Shown here: positions 38,369 to 60,191 of the stretch, one piece after another
Numbering within the stretch: the first letter of the stretch is position 1
Layout: every line of letters begins with the position of its first letter
Assembly: GCF_025506335.1 (NCBI RefSeq)
Contig: NZ_JANZYO010000001.1
Span: forward strand, 1-64,000
DNA from: Mumia quercus
GTDB lineage: Bacteria > Actinomycetota > Actinomycetes > Propionibacteriales > Nocardioidaceae
Reading direction: 5' to 3'
Length of the DNA: 64,000 nt
Made by a program: the position numbers and the translations under genes
Notes under the pieces: model-generated
What the model saw: only the letters and a program-made list of their open reading frames with translations
Told to the model about the DNA's origin: nothing
Database searches by the model: none

Positions 38369-40204
38369 TCAGGCCTCCAGGCGAGCCTTCAGGCCGTCGA
38401 GCTCGGTCCAGAGAACGGCCGGCAGCTTGTCGCCGAACTTCTCGAACCACTCGTTGATCTGCGGGATCTCGGCCTTCCACTCGTCGACGTCGACGGCGAG
38501 CGCCTTGGCCATCTGCTCGTCGCTGACGTCCAGGCCGTCGGTGTCGAGGGCACCCGGCGCGGGCACGAGGCCGATCGGCGTCTCGACGGCGTCGACCTTG
38601 CCCTCGATGCGCTCGACGACGTACTTGAGCACGCGGCTGTTCTCACCGAAGCCCGGCCACAGGAACGAGCCGTCCTCGTCGCGGCGGAACCAGTTGACGT
38701 AGAAGATCTTCGGGAACTTCGACTCGTCGTTGTTCTTCGCCATCGAGATCCAGTGGCTGAAGTAGTCACCGGCGTCGTAGCCGATGAACGGCAGCATCGC
38801 CATCGGGTCACGACGGACGACACCGACCGCACCGGTCGCCGCGGCCGTGGTCTCCGACGAGAGCGTGGCGCCCATGAAGGTGCCATGCGTCCAGTCGCGG
38901 GCCTCGGTGACAAGCGGGATCGTCGTCTTGCGACGGCCGCCGAAGAGGATCGCGTCGATCGGGACACCGTTGGGGTCGTCGTACTCCGGCGCGAGGATCG
39001 GGCACTGACGGATCGGGGTGCAGAAGCGGCTGTTGGGGTGCGAGGAGAGCTCCCCGGACTCCGGCGTCCAGTCGCGGCCCTTCCAGTCGGTGAGGTGCGC
39101 GGGCGTCTCGTCGGTCATGCCCTCCCACCACACGTCACCGTCGTCGGTGAGCGCGACGTTGGTGAACACCGAGTTGCCCTTGGCGATGGTGCGCATCGCA
39201 TTGGCGTTGGTGTCCCAGCCGGTGCCCGGCGCGACGCCGAACAGGCCGAACTCCGGGTTGACCGCGTACAGACGGCCGTCGGCGCCGACGCGCATCCACG
39301 CGATGTCGTCGCCGAGGGTCTCGACCTTCCAGCCCTCGATCGTGGGCTCGACCATCGCGAGGTTGGTCTTGCCGCACGCGCTCGGGAAGGCGGCCGCGAT
39401 GTACTTGACCTCGTTCTCGGGCGAGGTCAGCTTGAGGATCAGCATGTGCTCGGCGAGCCAGCCCTCGTCGCGGCCCATCACCGAGGCGATGCGGAGCGAG
39501 TAGCACTTCTTGCCGAGCAGCGCGTTGCCGCCGTAGCCGGACCCGTACGACCAGATCATGCGCTCCTCGGGGAACTGCACGATGTACTTGGTGTCGTTGC
39601 ACGGCCACGGCACGTCCGCCTGGCCGGGCTCGAGCGGGGCGCCGACGGAGTGCAGCGCGGGCACGTACGAGGCGTTGGTGGCCTCGATCTTGTCGAGGAC
39701 CTCGCGGCCGACGCGCGCCATCACGGTCATCGACGCCACGACGTACGCGGAGTCGGTGATCTCGACGCCGAACATCGGGTGCGCCGAGTCGAGGTGCCCC
39801 ATGACGAACGGGATGACGTACATGGTGCGGCCGCGCATCGACCCGTCGTACAGCTCGGTCATGAGGGCCTTCATGTCCGCGGGCGCCATCCAGTTGTTGG
39901 TGGGGCCTGCGTCCGCCTCGTCGACGCTGCAGATGAAGGTGCGGTCCTCGACGCGGGCGACGTCGGTGGGATCGGAGGCGCACCAGAAGGAGTTGGGCTT
40001 CTTGGTCTCGTCGAGGCGCACGAAGGTGCCGGCTTCGACGAGCTCGTCGGTGAGGCGGGTCCACTCGTCGGCGGTCCCCTCGATCCAGGTGATCGAGTCG
40101 GGCTTGGTCAGCGCGGCAACCTCATCGACCCACGCCTGGAGCTCGGCATGCGTCGAGCGGTACGTGGTCGTGAGGGGGTCGCCGGTGGTGATGTCTGCGG
40201 CCAT
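38369..40204 (-). CDS. pckG: Phosphoenolpyruvate carboxykinase (GTP)
   Basis: The 611-aa product converts oxaloacetate and GTP to PEP, the first step of gluconeogenesis. All key motifs are present: [20 protein letters not shown] (both lysines), [10 protein letters not shown] (metal His), [13 protein letters not shown] (P-loop with reactive Cys), GDDIAWMRV (metal Asp) and [20 protein letters not shown] (guanine site). The frame continues upstream to an ATG at 40264, but the ATG at 40204 follows gagaaggac and gives the family length. A CRP/GlxR-like site lies upstream. A second, divergent paralogue is at 58350. Confidence 0.96.
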
Positions 40205-40577
40205 GGTGTGTGTTGTCCTTCTCGCATCGCGATTCAAGCGTGTTGATCGCACTGTCCGCGTCATCCTGTGACCGGCCAGCTGATGTGGATAGGTGGTCTC
40301 GGCGCACGTGGTCTCAGCCGTTCGACCGGTCCGAATCGCGTGCGCCGTGCTGTCAATGTATGCCCCGTCGAGAGGTTTGTTACTCGGGGGTCGCGTTAGT
40401 GAACTACATCACATACCCGCTCTGACCTGCGCTTTTAAGTTGATCGGCCCGACAAAACTCCCGACGACCGGCCGAATTGGGGCAGTAGCCCAAATGTAAG
40501 GTTTCTAGATTTTCCGGACACCGCCCGGAAGGCGTTTCTAGGGTTTCTTCATTTCCTCGGCCCTCCCGGAGCAGCCC
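40205..40577. other. Divergent intergenic region between pckG and the giant secreted gene
   Basis: This 373-base region contains a CRP-like dyad (40398-40413), a minus-strand TTGACA (40351-40356) suitable as pckG -35 though no good -10 follows, a direct repeat gtttctag (40501-40508 and 40534-40541), and the dyad ttccgg/ccggaa (40512-40530) between those repeats. No additional gene was recognised. Confidence 0.5.
40398..40413. promoter_or_regulatory. CRP/GlxR-like binding site
   Basis: agtgaactacatcaca matches TGTGA-N6-TCACA at all but the first base. It is about 42 bases beyond a minus-strand TTGACA, a position suited to activation of pckG, and about 165 bases before the giant gene. Confidence 0.6.
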
Positions 40578-53403: not shown

Positions 53404-56400
53404 TCAGAGCAGGCCGTCGACCAGCGTCGTCGGTGTCCCGAAGCGGTGGGCAGTGACCGCGACCGCCTGCTCGTGGACGAACGTGAGGAGCTCGACGCGT
53501 CCTGCCTCGACGACCGGCTGCGCGTACAGCGCGAGCTCGGGGCGCCCGCCGGTCGCCGTCGCGAACGCCACCGGGTCACCACCGATCAGGCGCACGCGAC
53601 CCGCCGGGAGACCCGCGAGGGCGTCCCGCCAGGCAGCGGCGTCCTCGACGACCGGCGTCACCCCGACGTCACGGAGCGCGACGGTCACCGGCTCGGGCAG
53701 CGGCTCAGCGGTCGAGACGCGCATCGGGGCGCCCGTACGCAGTCCGGCGCCGACGACCCGGAGCAACTCTGCAGGCGAGCCCGCCTCCAGGCGGATCCAG
53801 GCCGGCACCGGCAGGTGGCGCAGCACGTTGCGCTCGATCTCCAGACCCGTGACGTCCTTCGCGACGCCGAGGTCCGCGGTCCACACCGCGGCGTCCGAGC
53901 CGAGGGCGCGCGCGAGGTATGCGGCGTCCTTCTCGTCGAGGAAGCCGCGTGCGTGCGCGAGCAGCCGCTGCGGCGCACCGTCGACGTCCGCGGTGGTGGT
54001 GGCTGGCGCGGTCGCCCAGTCGCTCAGCCCGATGAGATAGCTGGGCCCGCCCGCCTTCGTACCCGCACCGACCGAGCTCTTCTTCCAGCCGCCGAACGGC
54101 TGGCGCCGCACGATCGCACCGGTGATGCCCCGGTTGACGTACAGGTTGCCCGCCTCCACCGTCGCGAGCCATTGTGCGATCTCGTCGCGGTCGAACGAGT
54201 GCAGGCCCGCAGTGAGGCCGTACTCGACCTCGTTCTGGATCGCGACCGCCTCCTCGAGAGACTCGGCGGTCATCAGGCCGAGGACGGGACCGAAGTACTC
54301 GGTGAGGTGGTACTCCGAGCCGCGTCGTACGCCGGTCTTGACCCCCGGCGACCACAGGCGGCCGCCGTCGGGTGCGTCGGCGTCGAGAAGGCGGGGCTCG
54401 ACCAGCCACTGCTCGCCCGGGCCGAGGGTGGTGAGCGCGCGGGCGAGCTTGCCGGACGCGGGCTCGATGATCGGCCCCATCTGCGAGGTCGGGTCGGACG
54501 GGTAGCCGACCTTCAGCGAGCTCACCGCGTCGACCAGCTGCTCACGGAACCTGCGCGAGGTCGCGACCGATCCGACCAGGATGCCCAGCGAGGCGGCCGA
54601 GCACTTCTGACCCGCGTGCCCGAACGCGGAGGCGACGAGGTCCTTCACAGCGAGATCGAGGTCGGCGTGCGGGGTGACGACGAGCGCGTTCTTGCCGCTG
54701 GTCTCGGCCATCAGCGGCAGGTCGGGGCGGAACGAGCGGAAGAGCTCGGCGGTCTCGAACGCGCCGGTGAGGATCAGCCGGTCCACGGCGGGGTGCGCGA
54801 TGAGCTGCCGGCCGAGGTCGCTCTCCTCGACGTGCACGAGGCGCAGCGCCTCGCGAGGGACGCCGGCGGCCCAGAGCGCCTCCACCATGACCGAGCCGCA
54901 GCGGCGGGCCTGGGTGGCGGGCTTGACGACGACCGACGAGCCGGCCGCGAGTGCCGCGAGCGTGGAGCCGGCGGGGATCGCGACGGGGAAGTTCCACGGG
55001 GGCGTGACGACGGTGACCCGGACGGGGTGGGCGACCGCACCGTCGATGCGGTCGAGGTCCTCGGCGAGGCCGGCGTAGTACGCGGCGAAGTCGATGGCCT
55101 CCGACACCTCGGGATCACCCTGGTCGAGGGTCTTGCCGCACTCCGAGGCCATCACCTCGAGGAGGTCGGCACGCCGTCGCTCCAGCTCGACCACGGCACG
55201 ACGGAGGATGACCGCCCGCTCCGCGCCCGTACGGTCACCCCACCCGCTCGCCGCGGCGTCGGCGACGATCCGGTCGAGCGCGTCGGCGTCCGTGACCAGG
55301 TGGGCGGCGACCAGGTCGTCACCGCGCGTCGAGGTCGCGACGCGTTGCGTGATCACGCGCGCCCACTCGCGGTTGCCCGGCAACGACGGGTCGGTGTCGG
55401 GGGTGTTGGCGAACTCCGTCGGAGGAGTCTCGTCGACCGGCTTCCGGCGGTCCTGCGTGCGGTTCGGCGACGGGACCGTGTCGTCGAGGGCTTCGAGCGA
55501 CGCCACGAACCGGGCGCGCTCGCGTGCGAACAGCCCGGAGTCGTCGTGCAGGTCGAACACCGCAGACATGAAGTTGTCCTGGCTCGCGCCTTCCTCGAGC
55601 CTCCGTACGAGGTAGGCGATCGCGACGTCGAACTCCCGCGGGTGCACCACCGGGGTGTAGAGGAGGAGCCCGCCGACGGTCTCCTTCACCGCGGCGGCCT
55701 GCCCTTCGGCCATGCCGAGGAGCATCTCGAACTCGATCCCGTCCCGGACACCGCGGCGCCCGGCGAGCACCCACGCGTACGCGACGTCGAAGAGGTTGTG
55801 CCCAGCGATGCCGAGCCGTACGTTCTCGAGCCGTTCGGGCGTCATGGCCCAGCCGAGGACGCGCTTGTAGTTCGTGTCGGACTCCTGCTTCGTCGACCAG
55901 GTCGCGAGCGGCCAGCCGTGCAGTGTCGCCTCGACCCGCTCCATCGGCAGGTTGGCGCCCTTGACGACGCGGACCTTGATCGCCGCGCCCCCGCGCGCTC
56001 GCCGCTTCGCCGCCCACTCCTGCAGGTGCTGCATCGCCGCCAACGCGTCGGGGAGGTAGGCCTGGAGGACGATCCCGGCCTCGAGGTCGGTGAGCTCGGG
56101 GCGGTCGAGCAGGCGGGTGAAGACCGCGATGGTGAGGTCGAGGTCGCGGTACTCCTCCATGTCGAGGTTGATGAACTTCGGCGTCGGGGCCTGCGCCGCC
56201 AGCTGGAACAGCGGCAGCAGGCTCTTCTCGATGTGCGCGACGGCCTCGTCGAAGGCCCACGGGGAGTGCGGTGCCACGGTGGCCGACACCTTGATCGACA
56301 CGTAGTCGACGTCGTCACGCGCCAGGAGCCGGCGCGTGCCCTCGAGGCGGCGGTCGGCCTCCTTCTCGCCGAGCACCGCCTCGCCGAGGAGGTTGACGTT

Positions 56401-56844
56401 CAGGCGGACGTCGCGCTGACGCAGCCGGGCGATCGCCTTGCCAAGGCGGCTGTCCGTGGCGTCGATGAGGAGGTGGCCGACCATGTGGCGCAGGACGCGG
56501 CGTACGACCGGGATCACGAGGCCGGGTGCGACGGCCGAGACGGCGGCTCCGAGCCGTACGCCCGCACGCAGGTGCCACGGGAGGAAGCGGGGCGTGGTGC
56601 GCGCGAGCTCGCGGAGGCTCTGGGCGGCGACGCGAGGGTCCTCGGGGCGGATCACCCGGTCGACGAACCCCACGGTGAAGTCCAGCCCGGCGGGGTCCTT
56701 GAGGACGGCGGCGAGCTGACGCGCGGCCGGGTCGACGGGCTTGGTCGCCGCGACGTCCAGCCACCGTCGTACGAGGCCCTCGACCTCGCGGACCAGCTCG
56801 TCGTCGACACCGACGTCGTACGGGGTGGGGCTCAGCGGGGACAT
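53404..56844 (-). CDS. putA: Bifunctional proline dehydrogenase/L-glutamate gamma-semialdehyde dehydrogenase
   Basis: The 1146-aa product oxidises proline to glutamate in two steps. The N-terminal half is the FAD-binding PRODH barrel (DVDYVSIKVSATVAPHSPWA, FINLDMEEYRDLDLTIAVFT, KVRVVKGANLPMER, LLYTPVVHPREFDVAIAYLV). The C-terminal half is an aldehyde dehydrogenase (VVTPPWNFPVAIPAGSTLAA, LMAETSGKNALVV, GHAGQKCSAAS with Cys748). No N-terminal DNA-binding domain is present, as usual outside enteric bacteria. The frame runs on upstream, but the ATG at 56844 has gggagag before it and gives family length. A LysR gene is divergent. Confidence 0.94.
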   Translation of the reverse strand: MSPLSPTPYDVGVDDELVREVEGLVRRWLDVAATKPVDPAARQLAAVLKDPAGLDFTVGFVDRVIRPEDPRVAAQSLRELARTTPRFLPWHLRAGVRLGAAVSAVAPGLVIPVVRRVLRHMVGHLLIDATDSRLGKAIARLRQRDVRLNVNLLGEAVLGEKEADRRLEGTRRLLARDDVDYVSIKVSATVAPHSPWAFDEAVAHIEKSLLPLFQLAAQAPTPKFINLDMEEYRDLDLTIAVFTRLLDRPELTDLEAGIVLQAYLPDALAAMQHLQEWAAKRRARGGAAIKVRVVKGANLPMERVEATLHGWPLATWSTKQESDTNYKRVLGWAMTPERLENVRLGIAGHNLFDVAYAWVLAGRRGVRDGIEFEMLLGMAEGQAAAVKETVGGLLLYTPVVHPREFDVAIAYLVRRLEEGASQDNFMSAVFDLHDDSGLFARERARFVASLEALDDTVPSPNRTQDRRKPVDETPPTEFANTPDTDPSLPGNREWARVITQRVATSTRGDDLVAAHLVTDADALDRIVADAAASGWGDRTGAERAVILRRAVVELERRRADLLEVMASECGKTLDQGDPEVSEAIDFAAYYAGLAEDLDRIDGAVAHPVRVTVVTPPWNFPVAIPAGSTLAALAAGSSVVVKPATQARRCGSVMVEALWAAGVPREALRLVHVEESDLGRQLIAHPAVDRLILTGAFETAELFRSFRPDLPLMAETSGKNALVVTPHADLDLAVKDLVASAFGHAGQKCSAASLGILVGSVATSRRFREQLVDAVSSLKVGYPSDPTSQMGPIIEPASGKLARALTTLGPGEQWLVEPRLLDADAPDGGRLWSPGVKTGVRRGSEYHLTEYFGPVLGLMTAESLEEAVAIQNEVEYGLTAGLHSFDRDEIAQWLATVEAGNLYVNRGITGAIVRRQPFGGWKKSSVGAGTKAGGPSYLIGLSDWATAPATTTADVDGAPQRLLAHARGFLDEKDAAYLARALGSDAAVWTADLGVAKDVTGLEIERNVLRHLPVPAWIRLEAGSPAELLRVVGAGLRTGAPMRVSTAEPLPEPVTVALRDVGVTPVVEDAAAWRDALAGLPAGRVRLIGGDPVAFATATGGRPELALYAQPVVEAGRVELLTFVHEQAVAVTAHRFGTPTTLVDGLL

Positions 56845-56892
56845 GCTCTCTCCCAGGAAAGAAGGAGTGGGGATGACGCCAGTATCCGCGCG

Positions 56893-56911
56893 ACTTTTCG
56901 TAAGGTAAAGT
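56893..56911. promoter_or_regulatory. Candidate LysR operator between putA and its divergent regulator
   Basis: acttt (56893-56897) and aaagt (56907-56911) form a dyad with 9 bases between, in a short A/T-rich island of the 105-base divergent region. Confidence 0.4.
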
Positions 56912-56949
56912 GACGTTTTCTGACCATTACTGCTCAGAGGAAGTGAACG

Positions 56950-57870
56950 ATGCTGGACGTGCGGCGCCTGCGTCTCCTCCGCGAGCTCAGCCTCCGCGGG
57001 ACCCTCGCCGAGGTCGCCGAGGCGCTGCACCAGAGCCCGTCTTCGGTGTCCCAGCAGCTGTCCCAGCTCGAACGGGAGGTCGGCGTCCCCCTGCTGCGCA
57101 AGGCCGGGCGTCGCGTCCAGCTCACGCCGGCTGCGGAGCTGCTCGTGAGCCACACCGACGTGATCCTCCAACGCCTCGAGCAGGCGGAGTCCGAGGTGAG
57201 CGCGCTCGGCGACGAGGCGGTCGGCACCCTGCGGGTCGCCGTCTTCCAGTCGGCGGCGCTCGCCTTCATGCCGCAGCTCCTCGCCGACCTGGCCGTGCGT
57301 CATCCGCGGCTGCGCGTGACCATGACCCAGCGCGAGCCGGAGGACGCGCTGTACGAGACGTGGGTGCGCGAGTTCGACCTCGTGGTCGCCGAGCAGTACC
57401 CGGGGCACGCCGCTCCGTGGCACCCCGAGCTCGACCGCGACCCGCTGACGACCGACGCGCTGCGCCTCGCCGTGCCGCCGAGCGGTGACCCGTGGTCGGC
57501 GATCGAGAAGATCGAGGACGCGGCCCACGTGCCGTGGGTGATGGAGCCGCAGGGGGCGGCGTCGCGGCACTGGGCGCTGCAGATGTGCCGTACGGCGGGG
57601 TTCGAGCCCGACGTCCGTTACGAGACCGCGGACCTCCAGGCGCACGTCGCGCTCGTCGAGACCGGCAACGCCGTCGCGCTGCTGCCGGGGCTGATGGGCG
57701 TACGACGCGCGCCGGAGGTGCGCATGGTCGACCTCCCCGGCGCCCCGCGGCGTACGGTCTTCACCGCGACCCGCGCCTCCCTCGCCGACACCGCGTCGGT
57801 CGCCGCGTGCCGCGCGTCGCTGCACCGCATCCTCCGCACGCTGGAAGGCGCGGACGCGCCGCGGGAGTGA
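56950..57870 (+). CDS. LysR-family transcriptional regulator
   Basis: The 306-aa product starts MLDVRRLRLLRELSLRGTLA and has the LysR winged helix EVAEALHQSPSSVSQQLSQL, then an effector domain (GTLRVAVFQSAALAFMPQLL, VEPGN-like region VETGNAVALLPGL). Located divergently from putA, it likely controls proline use (inference). A hairpin overlaps its 3' end. Confidence 0.9.
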   Translation: MLDVRRLRLLRELSLRGTLAEVAEALHQSPSSVSQQLSQLEREVGVPLLRKAGRRVQLTPAAELLVSHTDVILQRLEQAESEVSALGDEAVGTLRVAVFQSAALAFMPQLLADLAVRHPRLRVTMTQREPEDALYETWVREFDLVVAEQYPGHAAPWHPELDRDPLTTDALRLAVPPSGDPWSAIEKIEDAAHVPWVMEPQGAASRHWALQMCRTAGFEPDVRYETADLQAHVALVETGNAVALLPGLMGVRRAPEVRMVDLPGAPRRTVFTATRASLADTASVAACRASLHRILRTLEGADAPRE

Positions 57871-57887: not shown

Positions 57888-58226
57888 TCAGCCGCCGTCG
57901 CGACGCAGCGCCGCGAGCATCCCCTCGGTGTCCTGCCAGATGTCGGCGAGGATCCGGCGGCCCGCCGCGAGCAGGTCCTCGACGTCGGAGGTCGACAGCT
58001 CGTACAGGACCGTCGAGCCGTGTCGTGACGAGGTGACGAGTCCGGCGCGGCGCAGGACCGCGAGCTGCTGCGAGAGGTTGGACGCCTCGATCTCGAGCTC
58101 GTTGAGGAGCTCGCGCACCGGCGTCGGCCCGGCCTGGAGGATCTCGAGGACGCGGATGCGGACGGGGTGGCCGAGCGTACGGAACAGCTCGGCCTTCGCC
58201 TGGTAAAGCGGTACGTTGCTCGTCAT
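57888..58226 (-). CDS. ArsR-family regulator without cysteines
   Basis: The 112-aa product reads AELFRTLGHPVRIRVLEILQ, then PVRELLNELEIEASNLSQQL and AVLRRAGLVTSSRHGSTVLY, the ArsR/SmtB winged helix. It contains no cysteine, so it does not sense thiophilic metals in the usual way. The gene is divergent from a PEPCK paralogue, and a dyad in the shared promoter is its probable operator. The frame opens further upstream (58271), but MTSNVPLYQ is the likely start. Confidence 0.85.
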   Translation of the reverse strand: MTSNVPLYQAKAELFRTLGHPVRIRVLEILQAGPTPVRELLNELEIEASNLSQQLAVLRRAGLVTSSRHGSTVLYELSTSDVEDLLAAGRRILADIWQDTEGMLAALRRDGG

Positions 58227-58282: not shown

Positions 58283-58300
58283 CTTGCAGAGTTCTTCAAG
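58283..58300. promoter_or_regulatory. Putative ArsR operator
   Basis: cttgcagagttcttcaag is symmetric at 14 of 18 positions and covers the -35 and spacer of the PEPCK-paralogue promoter. Confidence 0.5.
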
Positions 58301-58349: not shown

Positions 58350-60191
58350 ATGGCAGATCCCGACAAGGCCATGGACGAGGCCGGACTCTCCAACCCTCGT
58401 GTGCGCGAGTACGTCCGCCACTGGGCTGAGCTCACCGGCGCGGACCGTGTCGAGGTCGTCAGCGCCGCCGACGACGCGCGCCTGATCGACGAGGCCCTGG
58501 CGGCCGGGGAGCTGGAGCCCGCAGGTGAGGGCCGCTACTACTCCCGCAGCTACCACAAGGACACCGCGCGCTCCGAGGAGCGCACGATCGTCGCGACCAA
58601 CGACCCCCGTCACAAGGGCGTCTACAACAACTGGCGGCCCGCGTCGGAGATGCGGCCGCTCCTCGAGAGCAAGATGCGCGGTGCGCTGGTCGGCAAGACG
58701 ATGTACGTCGTCCCGTACCTGATGGCACCTCCGGGCAACGCGCTCGCACCCTGGGCCGCGGGTGTCGAGCTCACCGACACCCGGACCGTCGTGCTCCACA
58801 TGATCCGCATGGCGCGGGTGGGGTCGGAGTTCGTCAACGACCTCGAGGACCCCGACAGCTTCGTGCGCGCCGTCCACGTCACCGGCGAGCTCGAGTCCCT
58901 CGGGCACGGCACGCCGGACGACCAGCGCTACTTCTGCACGGTCGCCGACGAGCGGACGATCCTCCACTTCGGCTCCTCGTACGGCGGCAACGCGCTGCTC
59001 GGCAAGATCGCGCACGGCCTGCGCCAGGGGGCGTACGACGGGTGGGACTCGCGCAAGTTCCTCGCCGAGCAGTACATGCTCATCGGCATCCACGACAAGG
59101 AGACCGGCGAGACGTACCACGTCTGCGGCGGCTTCCCGAGCGCCTCGGGCAAGACGAACCTCGCGATGATGCTGCCGCCGGACGCGCTCGGCGACCGCTA
59201 CCACGTGTCGTTCTACGGCGACGACATCGCGTGGCTGTGGGTCGACGAGGAGTCGGGCCGTCTCTACGGGATGAACCCGGAGTACGGCGTCTTCGGTGTC
59301 GCGAAGGACACGAACGAGACCACGAACCCGACGGCGCTGCGGTCCATCGCCGAGGGCACGGGCACGATCTTCACCAACGTCGCGTACAACCCGCAGACCC
59401 AGGAGGTCTGGTGGGAGGGCCGTACGCCCGAGCCGCCGGCCGACGTCACCGGGTGGCTCGACTGGAAGGGCAACCCGATCGCCGACCGGACGCCCGAGCA
59501 GGCCGGCGAGCCGTGGGCGCACCCGAACAGCCGCTTCACGACGACGCTCGACAACGTCCCCAACATCGCGCCGGACTACAACGCCGCCTCGGGCGTGCCG
59601 ATCGACGCGATCATCTTCGGTGGACGCACCCGCGACCGCGAGCCGCTGATCCGGGCGATCACCGACCTCGCCGAGGGCGTGTACGACGGCCTGACCCTGG
59701 GTGCGGAGGCGACCTTCGCCGCCGAGGGCGTCGACGGGCAGCTGCGGTACGACCCGATGTCCAACCGGCCGTTCATGGCGTACGGGGAGGGCGACTACGC
59801 GCGGCACTACCTCGACGTGGTCGGGGCTGCGAAGGAGCTGCCGATCTTCGCGCACGTCAACTGGTTCCAGCGTGACCCGGAGGACGGGCACTTCCTGTGG
59901 CCCGGATACCGCGAGAACCTCCGCCCGCTCCTGTGGCTGATCCAGCTCAAGAAGGGCGAGGTCACCGGTCGCCAGACGCCGGTCGGCATCCTCCCGACGA
60001 AGGAGGAGCTGCTGCTCGACGGCGTCGACATCACGCCGGAGGACCTCGACAAGATCCTCTCCATCGACGTCGACCGCTGGCGTCAGGAGATCGGCTTCCG
60101 CGAGGAGCACCTCGAGCAGTTCGAGCGGATGCCGGAGGAGATCTGGGAGGCGCACCGCCGCGTCGCCGCCGCCCTCGACGCCGAGGCCTGA
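58350..60191 (+). CDS. PEP carboxykinase (GTP) paralogue with altered metal site
   Basis: The 613-aa product is full length and related to PckG throughout: [60 protein letters not shown], and NWFQRDPEDGHFLWPGY. Three conserved active-site residues differ. The second lysine of LLGKK is Ile220, the metal-ligand His region reads LAEQYML (Gln241/Tyr242), and the P-loop Cys is Ser266. The second metal Asp (292) and the substrate Arg (PNSRF) are kept. It may use another nucleotide, metal or phosphate donor, or be regulatory; activity cannot be assumed. It is divergent from a Cys-less ArsR gene with an operator over its promoter. Confidence 0.85.
   Translation: MADPDKAMDEAGLSNPRVREYVRHWAELTGADRVEVVSAADDARLIDEALAAGELEPAGEGRYYSRSYHKDTARSEERTIVATNDPRHKGVYNNWRPASEMRPLLESKMRGALVGKTMYVVPYLMAPPGNALAPWAAGVELTDTRTVVLHMIRMARVGSEFVNDLEDPDSFVRAVHVTGELESLGHGTPDDQRYFCTVADERTILHFGSSYGGNALLGKIAHGLRQGAYDGWDSRKFLAEQYMLIGIHDKETGETYHVCGGFPSASGKTNLAMMLPPDALGDRYHVSFYGDDIAWLWVDEESGRLYGMNPEYGVFGVAKDTNETTNPTALRSIAEGTGTIFTNVAYNPQTQEVWWEGRTPEPPADVTGWLDWKGNPIADRTPEQAGEPWAHPNSRFTTTLDNVPNIAPDYNAASGVPIDAIIFGGRTRDREPLIRAITDLAEGVYDGLTLGAEATFAAEGVDGQLRYDPMSNRPFMAYGEGDYARHYLDVVGAAKELPIFAHVNWFQRDPEDGHFLWPGYRENLRPLLWLIQLKKGEVTGRQTPVGILPTKEELLLDGVDITPEDLDKILSIDVDRWRQEIGFREEHLEQFERMPEEIWEAHRRVAAALDAEA

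Follow-up and report, generated by a model that had tools for sequence, protein, structure and literature searches.

A conserved actinobacterial clade of phosphoenolpyruvate carboxykinase homologues with isoleucine and glutamine at two metal-ligand positions

Known accounts of phosphoenolpyruvate carboxykinase (PEPCK) take Lys244 and His264 to be ligands of the catalytic metal. The window analyzed here, a stretch of 64,000 nucleotides from Mumia quercus, encodes a second PEPCK homologue in which both are replaced, whereas all rows outside its clade that were compared in this study retain this Lys and His of the transition-metal site. The question raised by this locus is whether such a protein still works as a PEPCK, and with which metal. 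A natural and conserved clade without Lys244 and His264, occurring in genomes with no other PEP-forming gene from the three families searched, would show what the catalytic metal is for, and with the variant the choice of metal by an enzyme of central metabolism can be put directly to experiment.

The variant gene (58350..60191, plus strand) encodes a GTP-PEPCK homologue of 613 aa with Lys219, Ile220, Gln241, Ser266 and Asp292 in the active site. The reading frame is uninterrupted from the ATG at 58350, which is preceded by AAAGGA, to the stop at 60191. The protein matched NF003253, PEPCK (GTP), over nearly the full length with 619 bits (cut-off 504) and the Pfam models PF17297 and PF00821 with 403.6 and 185.3 bits (cut-off 23.8), while PF01293 (ATP-type PEPCK) was absent from its Pfam matches at E 0.001. 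The open frame and the full-length family matches bear out the first-pass annotation, which had called the protein intact. The curated model labels the variant proteins as ordinary GTP-PEPCK although their metal site differs. Two PEPCK matches were detected in the genome of the window (13 contigs, 99.98% complete), the variant and the canonical PckG, a GTP-PEPCK at 38 kb (38369..40264, minus strand), and they were 42% identical to each other. The canonical gene, with Lys-Lys, His, Cys and Asp present, served for comparison. In two within-genus pairs the dN/dS of the variant was 0.10 and 0.11, indicating that purifying selection acts on the gene. Pseudogene decay was rejected on account of the open frame and a dN/dS of about 0.1.

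The active-site positions were compared in a main alignment of 91 variant rows (89 distinct proteins) and 20 canonical rows. Rat residue numbers were assigned to aligned positions by motif, and Lys244, His264 and Asp311 are taken to be the Mn ligands of PEPCK. Codons 216-222 of the variant (58995..59015, plus strand) read LLGKIAH where the canonical gene has LLGKKCY, codons 239-243 (59064..59078, plus strand) read AEQYM in place of AEHML, and codons 263-270 (59136..59159, plus strand) encode the P-loop PSASGKTN in place of PSACGKTN. Ile220 and Ser266 had already been proposed as the equivalents of Lys244 and Cys288, and both assignments held in 91 of 91 rows. For His264, either Gln241 or Tyr242 had been offered; since Glu240 is invariant in both classes (91/91 variant and 20/20 canonical rows), the equivalent is Gln241 and not Tyr242. 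By alignment counts, Lys244 was Ile, His264 was Gln and Cys288 was Ser in all 91 variant rows, and with identical replacements in every row, neither chance nor a sequencing error is a likely cause. Rat Lys243 and Asp311 aligned with Lys219 and Asp292 of the variant, and both were kept. With Asp at the Asp311 position in 91/91 variant rows and Lys and His replaced, two of the three manganese ligands are missing, just as had been claimed. All 20 canonical rows displayed Lys-Lys, His, Cys and Asp. A second row set gave the same picture: Ile, Gln and Ser, with Asp kept, were found in 16/16 variant rows (13 new, three repeated from the main alignment), and Lys-Lys, His, Cys and Asp in 21/21 non-variant rows, which comprised 13 canonical rows (one being the window's own, repeated) and eight divergent rows about 30-33% identical to PckG.

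Among these replacements, the change from Cys to Ser had been given too much weight. Ser stands in place of the P-loop Cys in two Thermoplasma PEPCKs tabulated by Aich and Delbaere in 2007 (PMC2684135), and Cys273 of the M. tuberculosis enzyme was reported as not essential, yet its mutation altered rates (PMC5279734); the change is therefore a minor one. According to the same table, Lys-Lys occurs in all PEPCKs listed there except that of Aeropyrum pernix, and the second Lys of the motif is described as binding a metal (PMC2684135). One paper names Lys244, His264 and Asp311 around the cPEPCK site (PMC4631375). The account given for M. tuberculosis predicts that Asp, Lys and His form site 1 and that Thr and Asp form site 2, where the single Mn2+ of the crystal sits (PMC4370629). 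Judged from the sequences, the unusual part of the variant is Lys to Ile combined with His to Gln.

Most of the remaining active site was retained. That the substrate Arg, the metal Asp and the guanine site were mostly kept had been proposed from one protein, and the row counts in the 91 variant rows agree. Arg74, Arg395, Arg426, Tyr211, Asn393, Ser264 and Lys219 (variant numbering) were conserved in 91/91 variant rows, as was each of the substrate-site residues Arg87, Arg405, Arg436, Tyr235 and Asn403 in rat numbering. The P-loop GKTN (residues 267-270) and the kinase-2 GDD, which contains residues 291-292, were likewise found in 91/91. In the guanine pocket, Phe517 and Asn533 were invariant in all 91 variant rows, Phe525 was Phe in 83 and Tyr in eight, and Phe530 was Tyr in 88 and Phe in three, Tyr also occurring there in 2/20 canonical rows. 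The nucleotide-metal residues (Thr269 and Asp) were retained, and the variant thus has metal site 2 together with one of the three site-1 ligands. A different phosphate donor, as the first-pass annotation had suggested, is not supported by this pattern, in which GKTN and GDD are kept together with the guanine pocket.

Further class-specific changes included Ser to His206, Tyr to His222, Ile to Gln226, Arg to Thr427, Arg to Gln507 and Tyr to His502. These bear on the idea that the variant remains a normal Mn2+-dependent PEPCK, the lost ligands being replaced by new residues (candidates are His206, His222, His502 and Gln226) with chemistry and metal unchanged. His206, His222 and Gln226 occurred in 91/91 variant and 0/20 canonical rows, His502 is class-specific as well, and Gln226 was Leu in one row of the second set. 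The predicted structure of the variant (mean pLDDT 85.7, pTM 0.88) places His222 in a helix spanning residues 213-234, three residues after Lys219. At the two ligand positions themselves, however, only Ile and Gln align, and we regard an unchanged Mn2+ enzyme as quite unlikely. The model was poor at residues 265-267 in the P-loop and at 454-463. Among the 50 matches listed, the nearest solved structures (TM 0.84-0.89) were PEPCKs from M. tuberculosis, Polaromonas and rat and a mitochondrial PEPCK, that of M. tuberculosis being the closest fold (TM 0.89). A control model of the canonical PckG reached a pLDDT of 57 from an alignment that included 14 variant rows, and was left out.

The reading that we prefer, and hold with some confidence, is that the variant works as a PEPCK in which metal site 1 has been rebuilt. 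It would catalyze the conversion of oxaloacetate and GTP to PEP, GDP and CO2. By sequence, the nitrogen ligands Lys and His are lost, while Asp292 and the nucleotide-metal, substrate and GTP sites are retained. Site 1 would thereby turn oxygen-rich, built from Asp292, perhaps the carbonyl of Gln241, oxygens of the substrate and phosphate, water, or a newly acquired residue, for example His222. Because nitrogen donors are lost and oxygen donors kept, a shift from Mn2+ to Mg2+ preference is plausible, and the variant should run on Mg2+ and be less Mn2+-dependent than the canonical PckG. In gluconeogenesis it would replace or back up PckG. Counted against a working PEPCK is the yeast ATP-PEPCK, in which changing the matching Lys and His costs most of the activity.

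The distribution of PEP-forming genes was compared among the genomes of the family. The 123 matched genomes comprised 47 with the variant only, 52 with both genes and 24 with the canonical gene only, in an order-wide count that scored at most four candidates per genome; the status "both" was confirmed in 52/52 genomes, and variant-only status was confirmed with PF00821 in 14 of the 47. The one-or-other pattern gave a Fisher p of 2.4e-6, with "neither" taken as 0 from the listed unmatched genomes and kinship uncorrected; 14 further unmatched genomes, beyond those listed, probably belong to other families, judging by list order. Three family genomes in a survey of 39 relatives (G007, G020 and G022) were without any PEPCK match; they are 92, 85 and 62% complete, and it is therefore from the fuller genomes that the presence of one gene or the other in every genome is argued.

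Each of the 14 variant-only genomes checked (12 of genus g20, plus G443 and G474) carried one PF00821 gene and displayed no PF01293 and no PF01326 match, so that the variant is the sole PEP-forming gene found among the three families tested there. Because it is the only PF00821 gene in 14/14 of these genomes and is under purifying selection, with a dN/dS of about 0.1, the variant probably works, in line with the earlier suggestion of a functional protein. In a set of 25 genomes (20 variant-only, the window's own and four canonical-only), the ATP-PEPCK family PF01293 was found in none, and PPDK/PEP-synthase (PF01326) matched in nine, six of them variant-only and three canonical-only, with no match in the 12 genomes of g20 in this set. 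FBPase was present in 16/16 tested genomes, including the 14 variant-only ones above. Isocitrate lyase matched in 8/16, with most of the model covered in G024 and G411 only, and is neutral to the case. Over all 47 variant-only genomes, PF01326 was absent in 24 and matched in 23, some of the matches being partial and some full-length, and these 23 were counted against the working-PEPCK reading. Within g20, PF01326 was absent in 17/18 variant-only genomes. This genus is probably Aeromicrobium, since a protein from it shares 93% identity with that of a bin so named and 91% with that of A. stalagmiti. Tentatively, the whole clade may have given up the Lys/His transition-metal site, using Mg2+ only or the nucleotide metal alone as a manganese-sparing isozyme, which as a part of the same tentative reading would have replaced the canonical enzyme in many genomes of one genus.

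The variant was found in 11 genomes among the 39 relatives. In the order-wide sample of 293 genomes, 259 had a PEPCK match. The window's family accounted for 123 of these, 99 of them with the variant, which was absent from 136/136 matched genomes of other families. The phylum-wide sample of 396 genomes had the variant in three, with no score between 475.5 and 1189 bits. Named hosts among the best 80 of 402 relatives included Mumia, Nocardioides, Aeromicrobium, Janibacter, Knoellia, Phycicoccus, Blastococcus and Modestobacter, and these 80 also included metagenome bins labelled Jatrophihabitans, Sporichthya and Streptosporangiaceae. In one genome outside the window's class (L135, G194) the variant, on a 67-kb contig, was the only match; other genomes of that family have the canonical enzyme, and transfer or mis-binning may account for this case. 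Spread of the variant by plasmids was rejected, as all 59 matching plasmid records showed less than 60% identity. The clade appears undescribed in the open-access literature among the matches listed, which is weak evidence of absence as subscription papers lie mostly outside.

A phylogeny of PEPCKs carrying PSASGKTN had been proposed as a check. In a tree of 62 chosen rows, the variant formed one clade with a support of 100/100 on a long stem of 2.97 changes per column, in a tree for which the program flagged long branches. The branch joining the variant to canonical rows had a support of 94/90, and the branch excluding it from them 93/90. As far as the alignments and the tree go, the variant is a discrete, fast-diverged and now strongly conserved actinobacterial clade. 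The long stem could also mean a changed substrate. A PEPCK-fold enzyme that is active on another substrate or in another direction, for example one that takes another 2-oxoacid or mainly carboxylates PEP, would fit this stem, the many class-specific substitutions, several of which lie in active-site motifs, and the 52/123 genomes that keep the canonical PckG alongside the variant. The conservation of Arg74, Arg395, Arg426, Tyr211, Asn393 and Ser264 in every variant row and the 14 variant-only genomes without another PEP-forming gene in the three families tested speak against it, and we consider a new substrate or direction unlikely.

The variant and the canonical gene are usually close neighbors. 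Among the 52 genomes with both, 49 pairs shared a contig. The two genes were no more than 100 kb apart in 47 pairs, no more than 10 kb apart in 35 (29 in tandem with the variant upstream and six in divergent orientation) and no more than 1 kb apart in 12. Such pairing would be expected if an ancient tandem duplication had been followed by rapid divergence, or if the two genes are used jointly. It also gives the strongest case for a pseudoenzyme that has lost its metal ligands and binds or regulates the canonical PckG. Such a role is very unlikely, however, given 47/123 genomes with the variant and without a canonical match (PF00821 confirming 14/14 of those tested) and nucleotide and substrate residues that are invariant. 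A gap of 4.16-4.36 kb between variant and canonical gene was common to 11 genomes, its gene content being seen in Nocardioides pinisoli alone. There (L048:7875-11606), a PAS-GGDEF-EAL protein and a family-2 glycosyltransferase are encoded just 3' of the variant and before the canonical gene. In 7/7 Nocardioides loci scanned (L048, L045, L056, L057, L063, L036 and L061), a tRNA-Arg(ACG) gene preceded the variant by about 200-575 bp.

A gene for an ArsR-family regulator (57888..58226, minus strand) is divergent from the variant in the window. It encodes 112 aa from an ATG, and the Pfam matches PF01022/PF12840 were obtained on a longer reading with a TTG start. The translated protein has no Cys, and thus no thiol metal-sensing site. 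An imperfect inverted repeat, TTGCAGAGTTCTTCAA (58284..58299, plus strand), starts 66 bp before the variant ATG and is a candidate ArsR operator. An ArsR match was found in 25/91 variant rows, 21 of them divergent and within 240 bp. The repeat pattern occurred in 16/91 upstream regions (three of the 91 rows having less than 600 bp of upstream sequence), all 16 with ArsR, and in 0/66 rows without it; the association gave p 8e-12, with kinship uncorrected and the pattern chosen by eye after viewing the upstream sequences. It is possible that the inverted repeat is the ArsR operator. The variant had been credited with its own regulator, which holds for this lineage, where a divergent ArsR gene adjoins it in 21/91 rows, and not for most rows, which are without ArsR or repeat. 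When a conserved neighbor was sought by ORF comparison of 80 loci, no ORF family occurred in more than 36/80, the families including shadow frames and probably the canonical pckG itself; ArsR was the nearest recurrent gene upstream of the variant in these loci. Beyond ArsR, the window carries a proline dehydrogenase/aldehyde dehydrogenase gene (minus strand) and a LysR gene (plus strand) at 53404-57870. An in-frame search of the compared loci for PutA gave one weak match (L061, 28%), so that the pairing of PutA and PEPCK is local. The MBL neighbor had no match in the in-frame search of the compared loci.

Among known systems, the PPi-type PEPCK (EC 4.1.1.38) performs the same carbon chemistry and is described as evolutionarily unrelated (PMC8100219). 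The PEPCK of Aeropyrum pernix, which is ATP-like, resembles the variant in having no second Lys, for which the authors suggest a lost metal site; it differs in being nearer to the ATP type and in having Met at this position, where the variant has Ile (PMC2684135). The GTP-PEPCKs of Thermoplasma acidophilum and T. volcanium, set beside the variant from Table 2 of that paper alone, share the P-loop Ser (SASGKTN) but retain Lys-Lys (PMC2684135). L147-L154, divergent PEPCKs from other lineages of actinobacteria, are homologous and about 30-33% identical to PckG; unlike the variant, all eight keep Lys-Lys, His, Cys and Asp. These proteins have GLKK and a different guanine-pocket stretch, and resemble the Pyrococcus/Thermococcus rows of Table 2 (PMC2684135). 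The canonical actinobacterial PckG (M. tuberculosis Pck, PDB 4R43) has the same fold as the variant (TM 0.89) at 38-43% identity, and the two have the substrate Arg and the guanine pocket in common, as well as GDD and the P-loop GKTN. They differ at Lys244 (Ile), His264 (Gln) and Cys288 (Ser) and at many class-specific positions. Relative to metal site 1 of the canonical Mn2+-dependent PEPCK (EC 4.1.1.32), the variant lacks Lys244 and His264 and retains Asp311.
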